Positions 36,581-52,469 of a DNA stretch of 64,000 nt are shown here, one piece after another; the stretch's first letter is position 1, and each line of letters starts with the position of its first letter. The translations under genes were made by a program, and so were the position numbers. Under the pieces are notes generated by a model, which saw nothing but the letters and a program-made list of their open reading frames with translations, ran no database searches and was not told the origin of the DNA. Location: assembly GCA_009838195.1 (NCBI GenBank), contig VXSC01000047.1, positions 214,219 through 278,218 on the forward strand, in the 5' to 3' direction. This DNA is from Rhodothermaceae bacterium (GTDB lineage Bacteria > Bacteroidota > Rhodothermia > Rhodothermales > Bin80).

Positions 36581-38134
36581 ATGACATCTGCCCTGAAATA
36601 TTCTCTCCTCGCTTTTGCCTTCTCTTTCCTGCTTGGCTGTGATAGTGGCCCCATGGATCCGGGAACGACCGAGAAAGGACTTGGGCATCTGATCACGAGT
36701 GAAAGCCTAGTCCTAAATCCAACTGGCTATACCCCCCTTTCGGCAGAGCTCAAGCTGCAAACCACGCAACCCGTCCAAGTAGAACTGGAAATCGCAAGCC
36801 GCAACGATGATGAAGAAAATCTCATCCACCGCTTTGAAGAAACCGGCACGTCATTTACACTCCCGGTACTCGGTCTCTACGCTTCGCACAGCAACACCTT
36901 GCATATTCGATTCTATGACAATGCGAATCAATTACTGGGAGAGGAAACCCGTCCTATTGATACCCCACATCGCTTACAGGAACTCCCAACCATCAATGTT
37001 CGCGTCAATACAGGGCGAAAAAAGCCGGGTATGAACCTAGTGAGTTACTTCGGACACACCAATCGTGAGTTGCCACAAATCCCGTTCATTTTTGATCAAT
37101 ATGGGCATATTCGATGGTATGCCAATATGGATGCACATCCTGTGCTGGGAAATCTGTTTTATGACGTCGGAGTTGAGCGCCTCGAAAACGGTAATCTCTA
37201 CTTCGGCGACGGTAGTAGCGGGCGTCTGGTTGAGATGGACATGTTGGGCAGAGTCGTCAATGAGTGGCCTCTGCCGGGGTACACCTTTCACCATCACGTT
37301 CTTGAACTCCCGAACGGAAATTTATTGGCAACGGTCAACAAACATGGACTCCCCACCATAGAGGATCATATCCTGGAAATTGACCGCGAGAGTGGAGTCA
37401 TTGTGCAAGTATGGGATCTTAGACAGTCGCTGGATTCACGGCGGCGCATATGGAGTAGTAATTCTAGAGACTGGTTCCACGCAAATGGCCTGGCCTATGA
37501 CGAAGAGAAAGATGCGATCATCGTGTCTGGACGTGTCCAAGGGACCGTAAAGCTGACTCGTGACAATGAATTGATTTGGCTTTTGGCTCCGCATAGAGGT
37601 TGGAACCGATCCGGGAATGGGACGGACCTTAACACCAAACTCTTGCAACCCCTGGATGCAAATGGGATGCCCATCACAGATACCCGGGTACTTGCAGGGT
37701 TTAGTGACCATTCGGAATTCTCGTGGGCGTGGTATCAGCATGCACCCAAGTTAACGCCACAGGGGACCCTGTTTTTATTCGACAATGGGGACAACCGACA
37801 TTACCAAGGACAGCCTGTATTCAGCCGGGCGGTCGAATATCGAATTGATGACGAGGCGATGACGATTCAGCAGGTTTGGGAATATGGCCGTGAACGCGGC
37901 CATACAACCTATTCAGGCATCGTATCGGATGTTGATTATCACCAGGACGAGAATACCGTCGTCTTCATGCCCGGTGCCAATTTTGAAAACGGGCCCAACG
38001 GGAAAACGGTTGAAGTTGATTACGCCACAAAGGATGTGGTCTATGAAGCTGTCATACGAAATGACGGAGAAGCAATGTACGGAATTACGTTTCACCGCAT
38101 TGAACGCCTTCCCATTTATCCACACAATCAATAG
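36581..38134 (+). CDS. Arylsulfotransferase-family lipoprotein
   Basis: The 517-residue protein has a lipoprotein signal (lipobox LLGC, Cys20). A beta-rich N-terminal domain to about residue 140 is followed by an arylsulfotransferase (ASST) beta-propeller. Family traits are FHHHVLELPNGNLLAT with the active-site-type His, DWFHANGLAYD, and repeated blades with LENGN or LPNGN turns. ASST enzymes move sulfate between phenolic esters without PAPS, in the periplasm or at the surface. The next gene, three bases away, is a second ASST. The substrate is unknown. Confidence 0.85.
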   Translation: MTSALKYSLLAFAFSFLLGCDSGPMDPGTTEKGLGHLITSESLVLNPTGYTPLSAELKLQTTQPVQVELEIASRNDDEENLIHRFEETGTSFTLPVLGLYASHSNTLHIRFYDNANQLLGEETRPIDTPHRLQELPTINVRVNTGRKKPGMNLVSYFGHTNRELPQIPFIFDQYGHIRWYANMDAHPVLGNLFYDVGVERLENGNLYFGDGSSGRLVEMDMLGRVVNEWPLPGYTFHHHVLELPNGNLLATVNKHGLPTIEDHILEIDRESGVIVQVWDLRQSLDSRRRIWSSNSRDWFHANGLAYDEEKDAIIVSGRVQGTVKLTRDNELIWLLAPHRGWNRSGNGTDLNTKLLQPLDANGMPITDTRVLAGFSDHSEFSWAWYQHAPKLTPQGTLFLFDNGDNRHYQGQPVFSRAVEYRIDDEAMTIQQVWEYGRERGHTTYSGIVSDVDYHQDENTVVFMPGANFENGPNGKTVEVDYATKDVVYEAVIRNDGEAMYGITFHRIERLPIYPHNQ

Positions 38135-38137
38135 AAC

Positions 38138-39874
38138 ATGCGTCATCCCATGAAACAAAATGTGACCGAGACCTTGCCGCTATCCTGCAAGGCTTGCCTT
38201 TTCGCCTCTGTTCTGCTGTTTGCATTTCCAGTACAGGCACAGGATCAAACCGTGGGACTTATGCGCAACGATCCCGGTGCATATGAAGGGTACACCTTGA
38301 TTACGCCGATACTCCACCCTAGCGTCTATTTGATCAATCTGGAAGGACAAAACGTGCATAAATGGGATGCCAGTGCCGCATTTGGAAGCACCAACCGACT
38401 ATTGCCTGACGGGGCTCTTCTCAGAGTTTCTGCCGCTCCTAATTCATGGAGGGATGTTCAAGGTCTCTCAGGACGGCTCGAAATTATCGAATGGGATGGC
38501 TCAGTACGGTGGCAGTACGACTTTGTAGCCGATACATATATGCTCCACCATGACGTGGTCCCGCTGCCAAATGGCAACCTGCTTGGAATCGTCTGGGATC
38601 GGCGGGATATGGATGCGATTACCTCTGTAGGCTATGACCCTGCCAATCTCGCTGACGATCAGAATCAGATATTGAGCGAGCGAATTGTCGAATTCAAACC
38701 GATATTGCCCGATACGATAGAAATCGTATGGCAGTGGGATTCCTGGGACCATCTTGTTCAAGATCATAACCCGCTACTATCGGATACCTATGCTGAACGT
38801 ATTTCTGACCATCCCGGGCGCATTGATGTCAATACCTCTGTCGGTGGTGACTGGCTCCACTTCAATGCACTGGATTACAACGAGGAACTGGATGTGATCG
38901 CAGTCAGTGCATCGTTTATTGATGAATTTTGGATCATTGACCATAGCCCCTCAACAGAAGAAGCACGCGGAAATGCGGGAGGAAATTTTGGATTAGGAGG
39001 CCAACTATTGTACCGCTGGGGCAATCCCCGGATATATGGTGCAGGAGGTGAGGAAGATCAGACACTGCACTTCCTTCATTCTGTCCTGTGGATTTCTGAC
39101 GGTTTGCCTGGGGCAGGGAATTTGCTCGTATTCGAGAATGGAGTCGGGCAGCCGGAAGGGAATTTCTCAACGGTCCATGAACTCGTACTCCCGTACATGG
39201 AAGATTCCTATGGAGATGCAGTCTGGTACGCCCAGGACCTGGATGGATCCTTTCAGGATCCTGAGACTGCCTGGGATTACTCAGCGCCAGGCGAATTCTA
39301 TAGCGACTTCATCTCCGGTCAACAACGCCTTCCTAATGGAAATACGTTGATTGCGGAGGGAATGACGGGGCGTATTTTTGAACTTGCAGCAGGGTCGGAT
39401 CAACTCATCTGGGAATACGTCAACCCCGTAGTACAAACCGGCCCTTTATCGCAGGGAGACCCGATTCCTCCATTTGGCCCTCCGGGCTCGGTCCGCCTGC
39501 AGAATGGAGTCTTTCGTGCGCTGCGCTATGGGGTTGACTTCGAAGGATTTTCTGACAAAGACCTTTCCCCAGTTGGACCTATCGAACTCAGGACCACTGC
39601 TGAAATCCCCGATCGACGTTTCGAGCTATCGCCTAGCTATCCAAATCCATTTCGGGATCAGGTATCCCTATCCATACAGGTTGATGAGCCGATGCACATC
39701 GAGCTGGACGTCTTTAACGTACTTGGTCAAAAGGTGACGACGCTGACCAATGAGTTTCATGCTGTGGGGACCTACAATTATGTTTTCAATGCTGAAGCAC
39801 TGCCGCCGGGGATTTATTTATGCAGAGCCACCTCCGAATATCATTCAAGTACGATCTCGTTGATTCATCGTTAG
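38138..39874 (+). CDS. Arylsulfotransferase-family protein with type IX secretion C-terminal domain
   Basis: The 578-residue protein has a Sec signal (cleavage after VQAQ, about residue 32; M5 may be the true start). An ASST propeller covers about 40-490, with LHHDVVPLPNGN and DWLHFNALDYN mirroring the upstream paralog. Residues 495-578 form a T9SS-type sorting domain: SPSYPNPFRDQVSLSI, then VFNVLGQKVTTL, then LPPGIYLCRATS. This implies export across the outer membrane and surface attachment or release. It is paired with the lipoprotein paralog three bases upstream. Confidence 0.87.
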   Translation: MRHPMKQNVTETLPLSCKACLFASVLLFAFPVQAQDQTVGLMRNDPGAYEGYTLITPILHPSVYLINLEGQNVHKWDASAAFGSTNRLLPDGALLRVSAAPNSWRDVQGLSGRLEIIEWDGSVRWQYDFVADTYMLHHDVVPLPNGNLLGIVWDRRDMDAITSVGYDPANLADDQNQILSERIVEFKPILPDTIEIVWQWDSWDHLVQDHNPLLSDTYAERISDHPGRIDVNTSVGGDWLHFNALDYNEELDVIAVSASFIDEFWIIDHSPSTEEARGNAGGNFGLGGQLLYRWGNPRIYGAGGEEDQTLHFLHSVLWISDGLPGAGNLLVFENGVGQPEGNFSTVHELVLPYMEDSYGDAVWYAQDLDGSFQDPETAWDYSAPGEFYSDFISGQQRLPNGNTLIAEGMTGRIFELAAGSDQLIWEYVNPVVQTGPLSQGDPIPPFGPPGSVRLQNGVFRALRYGVDFEGFSDKDLSPVGPIELRTTAEIPDRRFELSPSYPNPFRDQVSLSIQVDEPMHIELDVFNVLGQKVTTLTNEFHAVGTYNYVFNAEALPPGIYLCRATSEYHSSTISLIHR

Positions 39875-40251
39875 TCTGCTTCGCCAATCCTACGGACGCA
39901 TCCCCGTGAACATTTGAGCTGTCGCAGGCGAAAATAAGTGACGCTAGACCGAGCATTGCAGGGGGACTTCCCGTATGGGTAGATGTCCATTATGGTGCCC
40001 GTCACGCACTGATGCACAAAATCGTATTACACCGTACTGTCAGCATCCTCATTTTGCGTACCCGGTAAAGAAAAACTCGATGGAGGTTAAAGCCGAACTC
40101 CTCGAATTTCTGGAAGCGCTTCCGCGGATGCGCGAATGTTTTCGGTGAAATTTCTTCATAGAATTTAATCGGGATCTATGAAAACGTTTGCAACGTACAA
40201 TCGTGGGTAAGCTGTTTCTCCCTGAACACAACCATTGATGGGGGTATATCT
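39875..40251. other. Intergenic region holding one copy of a 21-base direct repeat
   Basis: No gene is evident in these 377 bases. The repeat copy at 39935-39955 is listed separately; its partner is beyond the next gene. Confidence 0.4.
39935..39955 (+). repeat. Direct repeat copy 1 flanking the ferrochelatase-like gene
   Basis: TAAGTGACGCTAGACCGAGC plus A matches 41370-41390 at 19 of 21 positions; both differences are transitions. It begins 61 bases after the stop of the second arylsulfotransferase. Confidence 0.5.
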
Positions 40252-41325
40252 GTGCAACAACCTGTCCTAAGAACACCGTCTGGATGTCCGAGGCAAATCC
40301 AAAGGCGTGACAGAATTGGGGTGGTACTATTCCACTGGGGTGGTCCAAGTCGAGTAAAGGAGGTTCATTCGTTTCTACGCCGCGTCTATGACGATAAGTA
40401 CGTACGCAGACAATCGCGGGTATTCCGCAATTTTCAGGCGTTATTTTCGTGGTTGGCGGCAGCTTCCATGCGGGAGAAAGTGCAGCACGAGTTGAGTGCA
40501 GTCGGGGGAAATTGTCCGGCGATAAAATTGGTCAACGAACAGGTGCGGGGGCTTGAAAGTAAGCTGGTGCGACGCTGGGGTAACAGGATTGGTGTAAACT
40601 TTCGTGTGTATGCTGCGATGCAGTACGCCCACCCATTTGCACGCGAAACGGCACATCAAATGAGACAGGATGGCATCAAACACGTGATCCTGATTCCTGC
40701 ATATTTACAGGAGTCAAATGCCGGACGGCAAAAATCGGTCGGCAACTGGCACGAACTGGTGGATAATCAAAAAATCCCCCAATGGCCAACCCATGAGATT
40801 CCACCGTTTGGCCGTGCTCCCAAGGTCCTTACGGCACTTAGTGAACGCATAGATCAAACACTTCAGCGATTTCCGAAACCGCTTCGATCCAGTGTGGCAG
40901 TGATCTTCTGTGCGCCGGGGATACCAGGCCAAGATAAAGCCAAATTCCAGGCCGAGGTCTTGCAAGTGAGCCAAGAGGTTATGCAGCAACGGAAGGAAAA
41001 GCGATCTGCTTATACGGCATTTTATGCGTACTACGGACATATAGGTGATCACCTGCGTGAGTTGAAGAAGAAAATCGTCAAAGCAGCAGATGTGGGAAAC
41101 CGTTGTGTAATGCTCCTACCGCTTTGTGGAACTACGGAAAATCTACAAACGACCTACAGCATGGATATCGCCTGTCGGGACTATGCCAGCCGGGCAGGGA
41201 TACATCATTTTGAAGTTGCAGAGATGCTGAATAGCAATACACTATTTCTGGAAACCTTATCTGACTTGATTGGAGAAACAGTGCAGTCCAGTATGAAGGC
41301 CGATGTCACGACATCGGACATGTGA
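40252..41325 (+). CDS. Ferrochelatase-like protein lacking both catalytic residues
   Basis: The 357-residue protein (GTG start) aligns by pattern with ferrochelatase along its length: IGVVLFHWGGPSRVKEVHSF at the N-terminus, YAHPFARETAHQM in the middle, and a C-terminal half ending in MLNSNTLFLETLSDLI. The catalytic His of the SAH(S/G)xP motif is Pro222 here (FCAPGIP, residues 219-225). The Glu of the DHxE motif is Gln299 (TENLQTTYSMD). Iron insertion into porphyrin therefore looks unlikely. It could be a binding protein, a regulator or an enzyme of new activity. A 21-base direct repeat flanks it. The assignment to the fold is fairly secure; the function is not. Confidence 0.7.
   Translation: MQQPVLRTPSGCPRQIQRRDRIGVVLFHWGGPSRVKEVHSFLRRVYDDKYVRRQSRVFRNFQALFSWLAAASMREKVQHELSAVGGNCPAIKLVNEQVRGLESKLVRRWGNRIGVNFRVYAAMQYAHPFARETAHQMRQDGIKHVILIPAYLQESNAGRQKSVGNWHELVDNQKIPQWPTHEIPPFGRAPKVLTALSERIDQTLQRFPKPLRSSVAVIFCAPGIPGQDKAKFQAEVLQVSQEVMQQRKEKRSAYTAFYAYYGHIGDHLRELKKKIVKAADVGNRCVMLLPLCGTTENLQTTYSMDIACRDYASRAGIHHFEVAEMLNSNTLFLETLSDLIGETVQSSMKADVTTSDM
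41300..41317. repeat. Palindrome at the 3' end of the ferrochelatase-like gene
   Basis: CCGATGTC and GACATCGG are perfect inverted arms with two bases between them. They lie inside the last codons, ending eight bases before the end of the stop codon, so they could fold into a hairpin in the mRNA tail. Confidence 0.4.
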
Positions 41326-42517: not shown

Positions 42518-43378
42518 TTAAAATGATAGTTGATAGCTGATGGAAGGAAGAATTGGGAGTATCGAAAACTTCTTGAAGATTAGATCCCCATCCCCATCTC
42601 TTTCTGTAATGATACTGATGGCATTTCTGCGACTGTACGTATTGTAGGCGCCTATGGATAGCGTGCGTTTTACCCGTCCCAGCATTCGATGCCTACGCAA
42701 TCCAATATCCAGCCGATGATATGCCGGTAAACGTGCACCGTTGCGGGAACTTTGAATATCAAATTCAGAAAGCCCAAACCTCGATGAATATATGGAGTCC
42801 CACAAATGGGACGCGGAAACCATATATCCAACCGGCAATGTCACGGCTTGCCCAGTGCCATAAACCCATGTTGCACTGATATCAAACCGGGGATTTATTT
42901 CGTGGCTGATCACCACAGATGCATCATGGCGACGATCATATCGGTACGGGAACCAGCGGCCATTGTTGATTTTATCAAATTTCCGGCGACTCCACGACAG
43001 AGTATAGCCAACCCAGCCGGTTGTGCGCCCGGATTTCTTTTGAAAAAAGATCTCTCCGCCGTAGGCAAGGCCACGTCCGGCTTCAACACGGTCTTCCCAT
43101 GTACCACCAAAAACCGTATCAAAATAATCAGCACCCTCCTCATACTCAATCAGATTGCTCATTTTCTTAAAATACCCCTCAACGGACAGCTCGAACATTC
43201 CATCGAAAAGGGTACGAACGACCCCGCCTGCAACCTGCCACGATCTTTGAGGCTTGACTTTTGCGGTTGCAGGAACCCACAGATCTGTGGGTAGAGATAG
43301 TCCGCTGGTCGTTGCCAGTAGATGGATATACTGCTGCATGTAAGCGAACGATGCTTTCACACTGGTTCGTGAATTCAA
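42518..43378 (-). pseudogene. C-terminal fragment of TonB-dependent receptor (after in-frame TAG)
   Basis: This is the continuation, in the same frame, of the receptor that begins at 44899. It holds the last beta-strands of the barrel, from TSVKASFAYMQQYIHLL and LPTDLWVPATAKVKPQ to the aromatic end SYQLSF. The first possible start here is TTG at 43378, right after the stop, so it would not make a functional membrane protein alone. The sequence itself remains conserved in type, which suggests the stop is recent or is sometimes read through. Confidence 0.75.
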
Positions 43379-43381
43379 ATT

Positions 43382-44899
43382 CTACAACGCAGAAACTCGC
43401 GGCTCAACCGAAACATAGGTCCTTTCCTCAATCAAAAAACTTGATGCATGTACACCGAGGTTCAACCGAATTCTTGAGCTGAGGCGCCAGTCATCCTCAA
43501 AGTAGGCCTGGAACTCGCTCCCATTGGTGCGCCGATTCGGTGAAGCTGTCGAGTCGGTGATGGTGTTCCCAACCCGATAAATCTCTTCATAAGCGCCCGT
43601 CAAAAAGGAATGCTGCTGTGCTCCCACGCCGAAACGGAGACTATGGCTGGCATTCGGAATAAATTCCAAATCCACACGGGCATGTAGATCCTGAATTCCC
43701 GATTCATAGCGATCTTCCCATATATTGGCGACATTGTTTGAGGTGTATCTATATTTACCTTGCACAAGCAACGCGTAATTCGTATAGCCAACCAGGATAT
43801 TTGAAAACAGCCGCGCCCCAAAAATATGGTTCCATCGGGCTGTGGCGGTCAGGTTGCTCCAGTTCAGCGATTCTCTGTCTTCGTCTCCAAGAGAGTATTC
43901 GTACTGCGAATGGAGACGGTCAGCCCCCCAGTAACCGCTCAGATAGATTCGGTTTTTAGGATTGATAACCACATTGGTCTTCACATTTAGATCCGAGAAG
44001 TAATACCCAAAATCCTCATCGTCCGGAAGAAAAGGGCGAATCAACAAATCAGCATATGATCGGCGTGCAGAGACCAGAAAAGATGCACGATCGCGCTTGA
44101 TCGGACCCTCCAATGTGACGCGGGATGCAAGAAAGCCAATGGATCCCGTTCCTGCAAATCGCTTCATGTTTCCCTCCTTCATCGTCAAGTCAATCACCGA
44201 TGAAAGTCGCCCACCATAACGTGCAGGGAATCCTCCCTTTAGCAAACGCACATCCTTGATGGCATCGGAATTGAACGTACCCAAAAAGCCAAATAAGTGA
44301 CTCGGATTATAGACTTGGGTGCCGTCTAAGAGATAAAGATTCTGGTCTGGCCCACCTCCACGGACATAAAGCCCGGTAGATCCCTCAACACCTGACTGAA
44401 CTCCAGGCAAAAGTTGGATAATTCGTAATACATCGGTCTCTCCTAGAATTGATGGGAGGTTCTCAACATCCTTGACTGGAATAGAAATCGCACTCATCTG
44501 TGTTGTCTGGAGTGAGGATTCAGCAGTTGCAGTCACCTCCAGTTCTTCCAGAGCAAGCGTACTCGGTACCAACGAGATATCAAGTACAAGATCCTCCTGA
44601 GATGAGTATGTAAGTATTTGGGGAGTGTATGCAACGTGGCTGACAACCATACGCACGCTATCTCCAAGCAAGGTTAGACTGTAATAACCGTACTGGTTGG
44701 TGGTCCCTCCTACATTTTGAGCAGCCACATACAATGCAGCTCCAACGACCAACTCTCCAGTTTCGGAATCCGTTACGGTTCCACTAACCGTGATGGTCCC
44801 CTCCTGAGCAAATGCAACCGGTAAACATAGACCATAGCCAATGATCACCAGTACGATTGGAATCTTACTCATATTAATCCATTTTAGAACTTGGCCCAT
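43382..44899 (-). pseudogene. N-terminal part of TonB-dependent receptor, truncated by TAG at 43382-43384
   Basis: The N-terminus has a signal peptide (to about residue 32, VAFAQ), a carboxypeptidase-regulatory-like domain (about 35-115), a plug domain (VLRIIQLLPGVQSGVEGSTG, then YVRGGGPDQNLYLLDGTQVY) and the first half of the barrel. The frame ends at TAG after EPRVSAL, but continues open with NLNSRTSVKASF. The start at 44899 is supported by a strong Shine-Dalgarno site ten bases upstream. With the downstream part the product would have about 793 residues, typical for a SusC-like/DUF4249-linked receptor. Confidence 0.8.
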
Positions 44900-45210: not shown

Positions 45211-46971
45211 CTACTGACTCGGTGAGATAATGAATTCAGCCTCGCTGACCTCACTTTCCCTGTATCCGTATCGGATTGCTTTTGCGCGGAGCACGACGCT
45301 CTCCTGCAACCGGAGAGGAGAAGAGAACAATAGCCAGTCTCCCTCATTGCCCGAATCGTCAAGAACGGTATAGGTAATTGAAGCACCTTGCGTTCCACTG
45401 TACATCGTCACATCTACAGGATTGTCGAAGACGCCGCCACTCTGGGTATAATCCAATTCGCCAGACATGCTGATTGCGGTACGCGCAGTTGCTTGGGGCA
45501 GGATGACGGGAGCACTCGTGACAGGCTGCTCTCCACCGGGCCACATGGATTCAACCATATCCAGCTCAGACTTGAATCCCATGTCTCCGACCTCCACAAT
45601 CCAGTCATCCAAAGCAGTCTGCAGACGGGACAACTCATCGCTGTATGCAGGATCGTAAGCAAGATTGTTCACCTCGTGTGGATCTACACTCGTGTCGTAA
45701 AACTCATGTACAGGACGGCGTGGCTGCATCCACAATGATTGTGCTTCCGTCAATTCGCCGTTTGAATGTAGTCTGAAAAGCTCCTGCATCGTGGGCATCA
45801 CATTCGCATACGCCATCCACAATGCGTATGGCTTCTCCGGCCGATAATTGCGTATATACTTATACCGGGTATCCCGAACTGCCCGGACCAGATCATACTG
45901 CTCATCAAAGCGATCCCTCGCAGCATAAACATATTCATGTGGGGGGTTATTGTCTGCAAACCTGCCAAGAAGCGCCCTTCCCTGAATGTGGGCTGGGGGC
46001 TCAACCCCTGCGAGCGAAAGGACCGTAGGGGCAAGATCCAGAAAGCTCACCAACTCCTCATTAACTCCGGGAAGCTGACCCGGAATATGAATAATGAGCG
46101 GAACATGCAACCCCGAGTCGTACAGCCACCGCTTTTGCCGTGGCATCCCATCCCCATGGTCACTCCAGAAGAATACGATTGTATTCTCCGTCAACCCGTC
46201 CTCCGCCAACTGCTCTAGAACCATTCCAGCCTGCGCATCCATTTCTGCAATATTGTCGTAATGCTGTGCAATATCCCGTCGTACTACGGGTGTATCCGGG
46301 TAGTAGGGGGGAACCGCAACCGCTGCAGGATCGGTCGATAAGGGAGGTGGTGGAGGACCTGCCATTAAAGCCGGCAATCCCATGGTCTCAAAAGCCGCTG
46401 CCGGGTCCGGCCAGATCTGGCTCTCATGCGTCGTCGTGAAATTGAATACGGAAAAGAACGGTTGATCCGTATCCCGACGATTTCGCCAGTGTGCCTCCGA
46501 ACTGGACTCGTCCCATGCCGTGACCGGAGTTTCGAACTGATAGTCCTCCTTCACATTATTGGTCGTGTAGTAGCCTGCTGCGCGCAAGTACTCTGTGAAG
46601 GTTTTCACGTAATGGGGCGGAACCACGCTGTATGGCGCCGGCCCCGGCGCAAAAGGAGCTCCCGACAACGTTCGCATATGATGGGCACCAAAACTGACCT
46701 GATGCATTCCGGTGATGATCGCAGCACGACTCGGAGAGCACACGCCAGCTGTCGTGAATACACGCGTATAACGTGTGCCCAGGCTAGCAAGTGAGTCCAG
46801 GCGGGGTGTCCTGGTAATTTGATCCCCATAAGACCCAAGGCGTGGTCCCATATCCTCTGCAGAGATCCAGACGATATTGGGACGTTCTACAGGTTCCTCA
46901 GGTGTAATAGTAACTTCAGGTTCTGTGCACGCGCACAAAAGCAGCAGGATCAAAAAGGGTCGGATGTTCAT
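45211..46971 (-). CDS. Lipoprotein sulfatase (heparan N-sulfatase-like), last gene of the cytochrome operon
   Basis: The 586-residue product has a lipoprotein signal with lipobox LCAC (Cys15). The metal site is VWISAEDMGPRLGSYG, the formylglycine motif is CSPSR with Cys78, and FWSDHGDGMPRQKRWLYDSG is the second metal region. The HHMRTLSG loop and the C-terminal extra domain (about 490-580) match the paralog at 4926-6656. It overlaps the upstream DUF2231-cytochrome gene by four bases, which ties a classical sulfatase to the DUF1501/DUF1549 system. Confidence 0.92.
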   Translation of the reverse strand: MNIRPFLILLLLCACTEPEVTITPEEPVERPNIVWISAEDMGPRLGSYGDQITRTPRLDSLASLGTRYTRVFTTAGVCSPSRAAIITGMHQVSFGAHHMRTLSGAPFAPGPAPYSVVPPHYVKTFTEYLRAAGYYTTNNVKEDYQFETPVTAWDESSSEAHWRNRRDTDQPFFSVFNFTTTHESQIWPDPAAAFETMGLPALMAGPPPPPLSTDPAAVAVPPYYPDTPVVRRDIAQHYDNIAEMDAQAGMVLEQLAEDGLTENTIVFFWSDHGDGMPRQKRWLYDSGLHVPLIIHIPGQLPGVNEELVSFLDLAPTVLSLAGVEPPAHIQGRALLGRFADNNPPHEYVYAARDRFDEQYDLVRAVRDTRYKYIRNYRPEKPYALWMAYANVMPTMQELFRLHSNGELTEAQSLWMQPRRPVHEFYDTSVDPHEVNNLAYDPAYSDELSRLQTALDDWIVEVGDMGFKSELDMVESMWPGGEQPVTSAPVILPQATARTAISMSGELDYTQSGGVFDNPVDVTMYSGTQGASITYTVLDDSGNEGDWLLFSSPLRLQESVVLRAKAIRYGYRESEVSEAEFIISPSQ

Positions 46972-48488
46972 GAGCCGGTGGTATCGGGTTCAACGGGGGC
47001 AAGGCTTAAGCCGGTATTAATATAGAGATCGGGTAGAGCCGACTGCAACCGGGTTACCCCCGCGTCCGTGACCTCGGTCTGCCAAAGATAGATTGAGTTG
47101 AGTGCAGGCAGGTTTTCAAGATGAACCAGGCCGGAGTCCGTGACTGCCGTTCCATAGAGATTCAGGTATTCCAGGAATTCCAGATCGCTCAGATGAGCCA
47201 AGCCGGCGTCGGTCACGGACGTTTGTTGAAGGTGCAGGCGCGTCAGATGTGGTAGACCCGCAATGACCTCCACTAGGTCATCGCCAACCGGAGAACGTCC
47301 GAGATCAAGCCAGGCAATATTTGTAGACAATGGACGCAATGCTTCCTGCAGCCCACTCGCGTCTGTACATGTTTGTGGATCCACACAGCGTACCTGCAGA
47401 TAGGGCTCATTCTCGGCCAAAGGGGTAACGGACACACCCAAACTGGCAAGTTGGGCGACATCCATGGAATCAGGCGGAGTCGTATCCAAAGCAAAAATGC
47501 CTGTGCGGATTTCATCCAGACCCATATGATCCACGATCGTTTGCGTCACCGGAGACCATTCTACATCCGGTAATAACTCTTCAAAGGAAGCCCCGGCATC
47601 AATCCACCAGCGCAGCAGTTCGGCTTCTGCAATAGAGAGTTGTGGGCTTTCGGCGGGAGGCATCCGGTCATCCGAGCTTGCGGGTAGCCAAATACGGTGG
47701 ATCAGTTCGCTCTCATGTGCACGACCTGCAACAATCGGAGAACCATTGTCTCCACCCTCAGTGATAAACTCGGGCTCATCAAGGCGTAAGCCGCCCCGCT
47801 GCGCATCAGAGCCGTGACAGGCAGTACATCTGGCTTCCAGGATTGGAGCAATCAAAGCTGCATAGACCGTAGTCTCGGCAGGGTTCTCAAGTTGCAGACG
47901 CCCGATATCAGCTTTCTTGGGTAACCCTGCCACCTGACGTATACCGTCAGGCAGATAACGGGATAAGTGATCCGGGCCATGCGTAAGTACTCCTCCAAAA
48001 TGCCCGGTTAAGGCAACGGTCAGAAGCATGAACCCCACCGCGATCCCGTAAGCCCGGCGCTCCCAGTTCTTGAGCCAGCGCTCTGAAAGACCAGGCCAGG
48101 CTTTGTACAGGTATGCCAGCGCAGCGAATAGTACAACCAGGACTCCCATGCGCTTATGCCAAGCCAACTGGTCTGCAGCATACCCACCCCCTTGGGCTAG
48201 ATAGAGCCCTGCGGCTACAGCAAGGATGGAACTCCATACACCGATATACAGGAGAGCCAGAATGCCTGTGTCATAGCGCCCCCGGAGAGAAGGCCTGCGT
48301 GAAAGCCCCTCAAGCAGGGCAGCCACTACAAGAATCCCAATCGGCAGATGGACAACCATGGGATGGAACCGCCCCAAAAACAGAGTGAAATCACTCGGCT
48401 GACCACTACCGGGGACCATTATCAGCATGAACACCACAAAGGCGAGGCCCATGCATAACCAAATCAAAGATTGCTTCATAAAAATCAA
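46968..48488 (-). CDS. Membrane DUF2231 - cytochrome c - leucine-rich repeat fusion protein
   Basis: The 506-residue protein has an N-terminal helix and then a DUF2231-type membrane region (RFHPMVVHLPIGILVVAALL, with further helices to about residue 168; several His residues could bind heme b). A planctomycete-type cytochrome c domain follows, with CTACH (Cys221, Cys224, His225). The C-terminal third (about 385-495) has leucine-rich repeats of the type TDAGLAHLSDLEFLEYLNLY. It probably anchors electron transfer in the inner membrane, with the LRR part binding a partner. It starts six bases after a DUF1501 gene and overlaps the sulfatase by four bases. Confidence 0.85.
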   Translation of the reverse strand: MIFMKQSLIWLCMGLAFVVFMLIMVPGSGQPSDFTLFLGRFHPMVVHLPIGILVVAALLEGLSRRPSLRGRYDTGILALLYIGVWSSILAVAAGLYLAQGGGYAADQLAWHKRMGVLVVLFAALAYLYKAWPGLSERWLKNWERRAYGIAVGFMLLTVALTGHFGGVLTHGPDHLSRYLPDGIRQVAGLPKKADIGRLQLENPAETTVYAALIAPILEARCTACHGSDAQRGGLRLDEPEFITEGGDNGSPIVAGRAHESELIHRIWLPASSDDRMPPAESPQLSIAEAELLRWWIDAGASFEELLPDVEWSPVTQTIVDHMGLDEIRTGIFALDTTPPDSMDVAQLASLGVSVTPLAENEPYLQVRCVDPQTCTDASGLQEALRPLSTNIAWLDLGRSPVGDDLVEVIAGLPHLTRLHLQQTSVTDAGLAHLSDLEFLEYLNLYGTAVTDSGLVHLENLPALNSIYLWQTEVTDAGVTRLQSALPDLYINTGLSLAPVEPDTTGS

Positions 48489-48494
48489 CAGAAA

Positions 48495-49961
48495 TTAGGC
48501 CAGTACTTCATGTACTACATGGCCGTGCACATCGGTCAAGCGAAAGTCTCGACCCTGGAAGGGATAGGTTAACCGGAGATGATCAAACCCAAGCAAATGC
48601 AAGATCGTCGCCTGAAGATCATGAACATGCACCCGGCCGCTTACTGCGCTGTAGCCAATCTCGTCGGTCTCGCCGTGTGTCATACCTCCCTTAACTCCAC
48701 CACCGGCCATCCACATGGTGTACACATCGCTATGATGATCCCTCCCGACGAAGGGGTTATCCGAGCCGGTACGGTTTTCCAGCATCGGAGTCCGACCGAA
48801 TTCTCCACCCCAGATGACCAGAGTTTCGTCAAGGAGTCCCCGCTGCTCCAGGTCGTTCAAGAGCGCTGCAACGGGACGGTCTGTCTCTTGGCAGCGTTCT
48901 ATGAAACCCCCAGTCAGGGACTCACTCTCTCCGGCTCCGTGTGAGTCCCATCCCCAGTGGAATAGCTGAACAAAACGGACACCCCGCTCGACGAGTCTTC
49001 GCGCCAGGAGACAGTTGTTGCTAAACGCGGTCTCTCCAGGCTCTGTGCCGTACATCTCATGGATATATGCAGGCTCACGACTGATGTCCATCGCGTCCGG
49101 GACGGACGTTTGCATCCGGAATGCCATCTCGTATTGCGCGATCCGGGTGAGGATCTCCGGGTCCCCAACCTCCCCGTGCTGCTGCCGATTGATCGTATTG
49201 ATGGCATCAATTGATTTGCGCCGTAAACTGCGCGGTACCCCGTCCGGGTCTCCGAGAAAAAGCACAGGATCTCCACTGGTCCTGCACTGGACTCCTTGAT
49301 AGACAGTAGGCAGAAATCCACTCCCGTAAACGCTGGCGCCCGCATCCGGGGCTGCTCCTCCCGAAAGCAGGACAACAAACCCAGGTAGATTGTCATTTTC
49401 AGTCCCCAGCCCGTACGTGACCCAAGAGCCCATGCTGGGACGACCCAACCGGGGACTTCCCGAATGAACCAGTAGTTGTGCCGGAGCATGATTGAACTCG
49501 TCAGTGTGCATGGCCTTCAAAAACGCGACCTTATCGGCAACCTGCCCCAGGTATGGCATATGATTCGAGATCCATGCCCCTGATTCTCCGTGCTGCTGAA
49601 ATGTTGCCTGAGGCCCCAACATCTTTGGGATCCCCCGGATAAAGGCAAACCGCTTCCCCTCCAGAAGAGACTCTGGGCAGTCCTGGCCATGCAGGCGTGC
49701 AAGTTCAGGCTTGTAGTCAAACAACTCAAGTGGGGAAGGCCCGCCCGCCATATGGAGAAAGATGACCCGTTTGGCACGTGGTGTAAAATGCGGACCTCGG
49801 GAGGTAAGTGGATCCCGGGGACCGGTAGAGGTCGCTCCGAGCGACGCAAACGCGAGGGCCCCAAACCCTGCACCCGCCGACTTCAGAAAATGGCGCCGTG
49901 TGACATGACCCAAATAGATATCACGAGCTTCTTTAGCAAGATTCATTTGTGCTCTCTTCAC
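48495..49961 (-). CDS. DUF1501 protein, Tat-exported (pair 1)
   Basis: The 488-residue protein has a twin-arginine signal (TRRHFLKSAGAGFGALAFAS). Alkaline-phosphatase-superfamily landmarks of DUF1501 follow: FLHMAGGPSPLELFDYKP, GWDSHG, GGEFGRTP, GRDHH and VHDLQATILHLLG; Asp and His residues in these are likely metal ligands. It differs more from the other two copies in the operon than they do from each other. It is separated from its cytochrome partner by a 39-base gap, the only wide junction in the operon. The activity of DUF1501 is not established. Confidence 0.9.
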   Translation of the reverse strand: MKRAQMNLAKEARDIYLGHVTRRHFLKSAGAGFGALAFASLGATSTGPRDPLTSRGPHFTPRAKRVIFLHMAGGPSPLELFDYKPELARLHGQDCPESLLEGKRFAFIRGIPKMLGPQATFQQHGESGAWISNHMPYLGQVADKVAFLKAMHTDEFNHAPAQLLVHSGSPRLGRPSMGSWVTYGLGTENDNLPGFVVLLSGGAAPDAGASVYGSGFLPTVYQGVQCRTSGDPVLFLGDPDGVPRSLRRKSIDAINTINRQQHGEVGDPEILTRIAQYEMAFRMQTSVPDAMDISREPAYIHEMYGTEPGETAFSNNCLLARRLVERGVRFVQLFHWGWDSHGAGESESLTGGFIERCQETDRPVAALLNDLEQRGLLDETLVIWGGEFGRTPMLENRTGSDNPFVGRDHHSDVYTMWMAGGGVKGGMTHGETDEIGYSAVSGRVHVHDLQATILHLLGFDHLRLTYPFQGRDFRLTDVHGHVVHEVLA

Positions 49962-50000
49962 TGAGATGGATGCTATCTAATGTGTTCTTCAGAATTGAAG

Positions 50001-52469
50001 TTACTCTTTCATGAGAAACTGATCAAGATTCAGGATCGCATTAGCGACAATGGTGAGTGCTGCCAATTCCGCAGACTCGTGATCCCCGATCAACCGGGCA
50101 GCGTCTTCGGCGCCTTCTATATAATGCGTGAGCGCATCCGTGTACAAGGCGGTCAATACATCCAGGGCTTCACGGTCCGGAGAGGTTCCCATAGCATAGA
50201 TATATCCTGCCTTAACTGGATCCTCGGCCGCTTGCATCCCCTCTGCCAGTGCCTGTGCCGCTTCAATAAATACGGGATCATTCAGAGAAACCAGCGCCTG
50301 CAGGGGCGTGTTGGTTCGGATCCTTCGGGATACACAAAATTCGCGACTAGGGCTATCAAAGGTCGCCATGGATGGGTATGGGACGGTGCGTCTCCAGTAG
50401 GTATATATCGCGCGTCGGTAGCGGTCATCCCCTTCACTGGTTCGCCACTGGCGGCTGTCATACGGATTTCTCCAGAGTCCTTCCGGCTGGGGCGGCATCA
50501 CGCTCGGCCCGTACATCTTCGAACTCAATAGACCACTCACATGCAGTGTCTGGTCCCGAATCTGCTCCGCACTCAGGCGAAAACGAGGCCCGCGTGCTAG
50601 ATACCGGTTACGAGGATCTGTCTGCAGTAACTCATCCGTCACGTGCGATGACTGGCGGTAGGTTGCCGAAAGGACGATCATGCGCAGAAGAGATTTAACA
50701 CTCCAGTCATGGTCCTCCACGAAACTGATCGCTAAATAGTCCAGAAGTTCTGGATGTGATCGCTCCAGCCCCTGGGTTCCAAAATCTTCCAACGACTCCA
50801 CCAGACCAATGCCAAACAGCTGCTCCCAGAATCGGTTGACCGTCACACGAGCTGTCAGGGGATTTTCACCGCTAACCAGCCACTCTGCCATCCCCAGACG
50901 ATTCCGAGGAGCATTCTCCGACATGGCAGGCAATACATCCGGGGTATCTGGATGCACGACTTCTCCTTTCAAAAGAAAGCTTCCTCGCTCAAGTACATGC
51001 GTCCGGCGCTGGAATGGAAGTTCCTGCATGACCGGGGTATGGATGGGGTTTAATGCTCGCAGTTCGCGCTCTTTTTCCGCTCTCTCTTCCCGTAAACGCA
51101 CAATCACTGGATCATCACTCAGACCGGCATAGACATAATCAAGAGTCCATCGCTGCGCATCCCCTCGCTCGGTCTCCAGCGTTGCCACGACCCGTTTAAC
51201 CTCGTTCTGCAGCATAAGCCGGACCTGTCCGATCACTTCAGGCTGATCCAGGGTCGTTTCCCATGTACGGCGCTGACGGGCCAGTGAATCCGAGCGAACC
51301 CGGGCAATCATCGCCTCTTCCAAGCGGGCAATCTCTTGGAGGAGTGCCTCACCCTCTGCAGCCATCTCCTCTTCAAATAAGGGAAGGGTCGGAAATTCAC
51401 TGTCCAGATCACGGTCTGCCGTGCTGTTGAAAAAGGCAAAAAATTCGTAATACTCCTCGTGCACAAATGGATCATAAGGATGCCCGTGACACTGAACACA
51501 CGCAAAAGACGTCCCCTGCCATACCTCCCAGGTCGTATTCACCCGGTCAATGACAGCAGCTGTCCGGAACTCCTCGTCATCGGTTCCCCCTTCCGTGTTA
51601 GTCATTGTATTTCGATGAAACGCGGTCGCAATCAACTGGCTTTCAGTCGCCTCTGGCAGCAGATCTCCCGCCAACTGCTCAATCGTGAATTGGTCAAAAG
51701 GCATGTCTTCATTGAATGCCCGAATGACCCAGTCCCGGTAACGCCATATCGTTCGACCGACATCTTTTTCATATCCCTTGGAGTCTGCGTACCGCGCAAG
51801 GTCCAACCACATCGCTGCCCACCGCTCGCCATACGCAGGCGAAGATAGAAGTGAATCCACATACGTTTCGTACGATGCTTCGTCTGTACACACCTGTTTC
51901 ACATTATCCGGCTTTGGCGGCAGCCCCGTCAGATCCAGTGTAACTCTTCGTACCAGAACCGGACAAGCTGCCTCGGGCTGCGGAAGTAGATCCCTCTGAT
52001 CCAATTGGGCAAGAACAAAGTGGTCAATGGGCTCACGAACCCACTCCGGCTCCGATACATCCGGCAATGGGGGACGCTCTGGAGCAACATACGCCCAATG
52101 ATCCTCCCAATGTGCACCCTGCTCAATCCAGGTTTGTAGCGTTTGGATTTCATCAGGCGTGAGCGGCTGCTCATCCTTGGGCATTCGATGGGCTGGATCG
52201 GTGTGTGCGACGCGCCGCAAAAGCTCACTTTCTGAAGGCTCAAAGGGAACGATGGCACGCTCTCCAGACTCCGCTGTGGAGAGGGCCTCATGCCGGAAGA
52301 GCAAACTCAACTCTCCCTGCCGCCGAATTCCCCCATGACAATTTACGCACCGCTCATTCAGAATGGGGCGAACCTGTTCGTTAAAACTAACTTGTGGAGC
52401 ACGCTGACAGCCCCCAAGCAGAAACGCTGCCGCAGGTAACACCACAAGGATTACCCAAAGGTTTTTCAT
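50001..52469 (-). CDS. Cytochrome c lipoprotein, PSCyt1-DUF1549-DUF1553 (pair 1)
   Basis: The 822-residue protein has a lipobox LGGC (Cys21) and a planctomycete-type cytochrome domain with CVNCH (Cys41, Cys44, His45). DUF1549 covers about 130-340 and includes a second heme motif CVQCH near its end. DUF1553 covers about 540-790 ([44 protein letters not shown]). Unlike its two homologs in the operon it lacks a LamG-type insert between these domains. It is exported and lipid-anchored. It overlaps the upstream DUF1501 gene by four bases. Confidence 0.92.

Follow-up and report, generated by a model that had tools for sequence, protein, structure and literature searches.

Why would a bacterium keep a ferrochelatase-like protein whose catalytic histidine and glutamate have been replaced? 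The question is posed by a coding sequence at 40252..41325 (+) of the window, our term for the whole 64,000-nucleotide stretch of Rhodothermaceae bacterium DNA analysed here. An earlier note on this DNA had proposed a pseudoenzyme kept for another task, such as porphyrin binding. We address this through the fold and active site of the protein, its descent and the selection upon it, and its counterparts elsewhere in the order Rhodothermales.

Fold and active-site residues

The product is 357 aa long, read from a GTG at 40252 to a stop at 41323–41325. Which codon starts it is uncertain: the frame extends without a stop for 30 codons further 5′ (from 40162), and the orthologues L034 and L035 have GTC there. 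The Pfam Ferrochelatase profile, PF00762, covers residues 22–342 (159 bits, E 1.5e-46, profile positions 2–315 of 317), a full-domain match that places the protein in the superfamily. An AlphaFold model built from 20 aligned locus proteins (pLDDT 85.7, pTM 0.86) adopts the ferrochelatase fold; Foldseek ranks human and yeast ferrochelatase top against this model (TM 0.77–0.82, with 0.79 for the human enzyme). The best solved-structure match of the window protein is human FECH at 96 bits, CpfC structures scoring around 36 bits. The ferrochelatase pattern that the earlier note had read at both ends of the protein thus belongs to a full-length homologue, and the fold-defining parts do remain, as it had supposed. 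With 127.1 bits, the window protein also clears the cut-off of the hemH model TIGR00109 (124.6) and would be labelled hemH by automatic pipelines.

The window residues can be aligned without a shift to human FECH and more than 40 relatives (residue numbers such as H263 and E343 follow the human protein). The motif FSAHGTP has become FCAPGIP (CAPGIP at 40909..40926, +), with Pro222 (codon 40915–40917) in place of the catalytic His263, and TDHIET has become TENLQT (ENLQ at 41137..41148, +), with the changes D340→E296, H341→N297 and E343→Q299. The exchange of the catalytic His for Pro and of the catalytic Glu for Gln, proposed from the motifs, is borne out by this unshifted alignment, in which neither residue has moved into the vacated positions. 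A rescue of the active site by a shifted His or Glu was accordingly dropped; H267, next to D266, is not conserved, the orthologues having Tyr or Pro instead. Further exchanges are Gln124 (40621..40623, +) at the human R164 position, where L033 still has Arg; Asp266 (41047..41049, +) at the W310 position, occupied by Gly in L033; Y276→F232; and F337→G293. At the H263 position, the window protein, L034 and L035 all have Pro, and L033 has Thr. Sequencing error was rejected, since identical changes are found in two relatives at 65% identity.

The features of a functional ferrochelatase missing here are the catalytic His263, the Glu343 network (H341 and D340) and W310, a residue reported to be identical in all known ferrochelatases (PMC3596385). 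Every H263 variant studied is inactive (PMC9133952), and, given this mutagenesis and the loss of His263, metal insertion by the window protein appears very unlikely. The same work confirms a top network of N75, M76, R164 and Y191 and a bottom network of H263, H341 and E343, with H263 facing opposite N75/M76, the side on which iron is thought to enter (PMC9133952). At the N75/M76 positions the window protein carries His28-Trp29 (40333..40338, +), a pair invariant in the four orthologues, in place of the Asn-Leu of intact Rhodothermales PpfC. Among the histidines, only H28 is both new and invariant; it lies across the pocket from H263, on the metal-entry face.

Heme route, descent and selection

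A second, intact ferrochelatase, the presence of which the earlier note had proposed to check, is indeed encoded in the window genome (G000:C27:5106-6017; motifs SAHSLP and SDHVE). It lies in an operon of hemB, a chdC-family gene, hemE, hemH (cpfC) and a PPO-type oxidase gene, and is nearer Bacillus CpfC (226 bits) than human FECH (145 bits). The ChdC assignment is based on PF06778 over the C-terminal half, on NCBIfam matches of which the best are HemQ models scoring well below their cut-offs, and on operon position. HemF (PF01218) was not found in the window genome nor in any family f1 genome. With its intact ferrochelatase encoded alongside ChdC-family and HemE genes, and HemF absent, the window genome very probably makes heme by the coproporphyrin-dependent route.

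In a tree of 68 ferrochelatases, drawn from the window genome and 59 relatives, CpfC-type and PpfC-type proteins fall apart. The window protein forms one clade with L034 (genome G005), L035 (G003) and L033 (G012) with support of 100/100, a long branch within the PpfC-type part of the tree and apart from CpfC; it is neither closest to CpfC nor sited with chdC/hemE. Human FECH is the top match of the intact PpfC-type genes in Rhodothermales (223 vs 131 bits for L003). Many intact PpfC-type genes share a locus with a pseudouridine synthase (psiU), hemF and a methyltransferase gene, and L033, L034 and L035 sit directly behind the pseudouridine-synthase gene that heads the psiU–hemF–hemH locus of protoporphyrin-route genomes. 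Tree placement and the psiU-linked locus of these three orthologues together show that the window gene descends from a Rhodothermales protoporphyrin ferrochelatase (PpfC). The window copy is itself not psiU-linked; the pseudouridine synthase of its genome is on a separate contig, so the window gene has moved.

The gene is present in 4 of the 16 genomes of the window genome's family and is dispensable, being absent from the other 12. In G001 and G015, the psiU locus is present and the gene is cleanly missing between psiU and an HhH gene. A candidate deletion remnant in G001 (a 53-residue match, E 4.7e-6) was discarded, because it falls antisense to the HhH gene, in the stretch that the C-terminus of L034 overlaps as well. 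Orthologue-bearing records, from an alignment scan, are the Rhodothermales bacterium MAGs JAJECE010000005 and JAJECV010000018 and the Bacteroidota MAG JAPPNA010000026; a single-protein scan of GTDB contigs gave no match.

A near-palindromic, operator-like box, TGAAAACGTTTGCA (40179..40192, +), is conserved 5′ of all four orthologues. It is the same in the window, L034 and L035, forms a perfect palindrome (TGAAAGCGCTTTCA) in L033, and was retained when the window copy relocated. We take it to resemble LacI-family operators. A genome-wide regulon with TGAAAACGTTTGCA as its operator was rejected, and no regulon was identified: the genome has the box at 5 loci, which is no clear excess over the reversed control, and these loci make up no coherent set of genes.

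The earlier note had read a region rich in heme proteins as a clue, a suggestion that did not hold: the genes with c-type-cytochrome domains (46968–52469) are 6–11 kb away, and the gene order is not common to the orthologues, which sit behind the pseudouridine-synthase gene. Two neighbouring arylsulfotransferase (ASST) genes occupy 36581–39874 (+); a type IX secretion sorting domain is encoded by the second. A TonB-dependent receptor at 42518–44899 (−) is split into two ORFs by an in-frame TAG (43382–43384), which reflects either a broken gene or an assembly error. A Planctomycete-style cluster at 45211–52469 (−) comprises a sulfatase, a PSCyt1 protein, DUF1501 and a PSCyt1-PSCyt2-PSD1 protein.

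The ferrochelatase-like protein is preserved by purifying selection about as strong as that on working CpfC. For L034–L035, the one unsaturated pair from which selection was estimated, dN/dS is 0.158, versus 0.136 for the CpfC of the same two genomes; the window–L034 comparison gives 0.11, with saturated dS. The value of 0.158 disfavours recent debris. For the pocket, we used the sites that we take to compose it from human FECH structures, a list partly checked against PMC9133952. Intact PpfC has 161 conserved sites; at these, the window clade has kept the ancestral residue at 4/34 in the pocket versus 42/127 elsewhere (p 0.018). Identity between the window protein and L034 runs the other way, with 34/37 pocket residues identical versus 187/286 elsewhere (p 0.001), and window residues that differ from PpfC are common to L034 at 24/27 pocket versus 105/189 other sites (p 7e-4). 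The intact pair L003–L009 has similar pocket conservation, and comparison of the window protein with the more distant L033 reveals no excess pocket conservation.

A pseudoenzyme kept for another task is thus well supported: the catalytic residues are lost, and the losses fixed in the clade, an intact, active paralogue is present, and purifying selection is similar to that on the working enzyme. This is probably a second job for a dead enzyme, described by nobody so far.

Possible ligands of the retooled pocket

We propose that the old PpfC was freed of its reaction when the lineage took up the coproporphyrin-dependent route, using a CpfC that belongs to another ferrochelatase clade. PpfC would then have lost its proton abstractor His263, the His341/Glu343 network and, with them, porphyrin metallation, while keeping the ferrochelatase fold and gaining clade-specific pocket residues, among them the invariant His-Trp on the metal-entry side. 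The resulting protein would most likely bind a tetrapyrrole, for which heme, coproheme or a porphyrin are the probable candidates, but insert no metal into it, and could serve as a heme-handling protein, for example a buffer, carrier or sensor. We would give an even chance to the whole of this reading, a former PpfC that is now a pseudoferrochelatase with a retooled, non-metallating and probably tetrapyrrole-binding pocket, for which we infer both ligand and cellular role.

Porphyrin binding, the task suggested by the earlier note, is plausible; it is in the porphyrin pocket that the protein has diverged most from its ancestor. Loss of the Glu343 network need not abolish such binding, because the inactive human variant E343K co-purifies with protoporphyrin (PMC9133952). 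A non-metallating tetrapyrrole binder would be in keeping with the fold retained here, with the conserved and retooled pocket and with the new His-Trp on the iron side.

The main rival, which we consider unlikely, treats the fold as a scaffold only, its pocket re-used for a ligand or reaction other than heme or porphyrin. Most residues by which human FECH holds its porphyrin are replaced, and the ligand may therefore be something other than a tetrapyrrole; moreover, the pocket is the most altered part relative to ancestral PpfC (4/34 sites kept) yet the most conserved within the clade, with derived residues common to the window protein and L034. Against this, the fold relatives of known function (CpfC, PpfC and SirB) all act on tetrapyrroles, and no new partner genes point to a different pathway, the conserved locus being the old heme locus.

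It is rather improbable that the gene is a slowly decaying, functionless relic with its deletion still to come. Such a relic would suit the patchy presence in 4/16 family genomes, the clean absence from G001 and G015 and the long branch, but the ORF is intact in four genomes, the dN/dS of L034–L035 is similar to that of CpfC, the pocket is conserved and the upstream box is kept even in the window copy, despite its move. In the f4 heme auxotrophs, a gene of this kind has a dN/dS of 0.092 (one pair of degenerate copies).

Pseudoenzymes often act as regulatory partners, and human ferrochelatase is a homodimer. With an active paralogue co-occurring in G000, G003, G005 and G012, the dead protein might pair with CpfC or another heme protein and modulate it, binding no free ligand, an arrangement made decidedly improbable by similar dead copies that persist in auxotrophs without an active ferrochelatase. 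A still-active ferrochelatase with a re-arranged active site, in which His28 for example takes over, could draw on His28, new and invariant on the side where metal enters, and on the carboxylate kept at position 340, but is highly improbable, with H263, E343, H341, W310 and F337 all lost, the H263 variants studied inactive (PMC9133952) and an intact CpfC in the genome.

Recurrence in Rhodothermales and known systems

Intactness was scored at R164/H263/W310/E343 in the PpfC-type genes of Rhodothermales. At least one intact PpfC-type copy is present in 38/38 protoporphyrin-route genomes, 2/15 coproporphyrin-route genomes (G037 and G072) and 0/14 inferred auxotrophs; these counts are not independent, their denominators are the genomes carrying a PpfC-type gene, and auxotroph denotes a genome with no HemB. 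An independent-pairs test of intactness against heme route gave 3 contrasts for and 0 against, which is not significant. The protoporphyrin route was assigned by exclusion in G033 and G077–G079 (HemB present, no CpfC-type gene, no HemF; among these, ChdC was tested in G033 only), and the coproporphyrin route of G061, G072 and G073 follows the score class of the second ferrochelatase. The auxotroph families f4, f5 (in part), f2 and f11 have a degenerate copy only. In f14, many genomes pair an intact copy with another that bears changes such as E343N. We offer, tentatively and at slightly under an even chance, a broader reading: that Rhodothermales lineages no longer needing PpfC, through a route switch or heme auxotrophy, lost its catalysis, and that many of them kept the protein as a pseudoferrochelatase whose pocket is re-shaped yet conserved and whose new function, most likely heme handling, is not catalytic. 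The window gene would be one such neofunctionalised member.

Several further ferrochelatases were encountered in the order. One degenerate copy each is found as L036, L039 and L043 (f4), L042 and L052 (f2), L037 and L049 (f5) and L038 (f11), in genomes without HemB, full-score HemE, HemF or ChdC, that is, inferred heme auxotrophs. The E343N second PpfC-type copies of f14 are L055, L060, L123, L129 and L130, each with an intact copy also present; in L055 and L060, the E343N copy occupies the ancestral psiU–hemF–hemH–methyltransferase locus. L025 (G024, 1339–2679, +) is a canonical PpfC save for H263→Gln, in a genome with HemF present and HemB and HemE missing, which looks like a pathway broken recently. 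A third ferrochelatase type, with SAHGTP and HEQSE motifs and intact H263/E343 positions, is represented by L041, L044 and L046 in ChdC-positive genomes; L044 and L046 are clustered with hemE, PPO and an aminotransferase gene, and hemD adjoins in L044.

A dead ferrochelatase is here tied to a likely cause, the change of heme route, is under selection and has parallel cases, inferred auxotrophs included, so that a separable second ferrochelatase role, in post-synthesis heme handling, becomes testable. The protein is a trap for annotation, too: it is accepted as hemH by TIGR00109, and a genome holding only dead copies would be mis-scored as able to complete heme synthesis.

Compared with PpfC/HemH of the human FECH type, the window protein has the same fold, aligns over its full length and descends directly from the Rhodothermales PpfC clade, but is without His263, Glu343, His341, W310 and F337 and without the C-terminal Cys-rich tail (a probable [2Fe-2S] site). 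With CpfC of the Bacillus/Listeria type, to which the genome's working enzyme belongs, it shares a superfamily; it differs in falling in the other clade, in its weak structure match (36 vs 96 bits for human FECH) and in lying outside the heme operon. Pseudoferrochelatases are already known, both from C. elegans and as 14 excluded sequences in PMC8529089. In the available text of that paper, Weerth et al. 2021 describe 14 sequences that lack H263, 11 being duplicates that accompany a functional copy, and discarded them as non-functional, with no link drawn there to route switching, selection or pocket conservation (PMC8529089). Our literature search returned no account linking pseudoferrochelatases to a heme-route change with selection on a re-shaped pocket. 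Like the window protein, the C. elegans pseudoferrochelatase is a ferrochelatase homologue that lacks the catalytic His and persists where there is no need for the ancestral reaction (PMC9133952). It differs in being eukaryotic; the window genome still makes heme, by another route.
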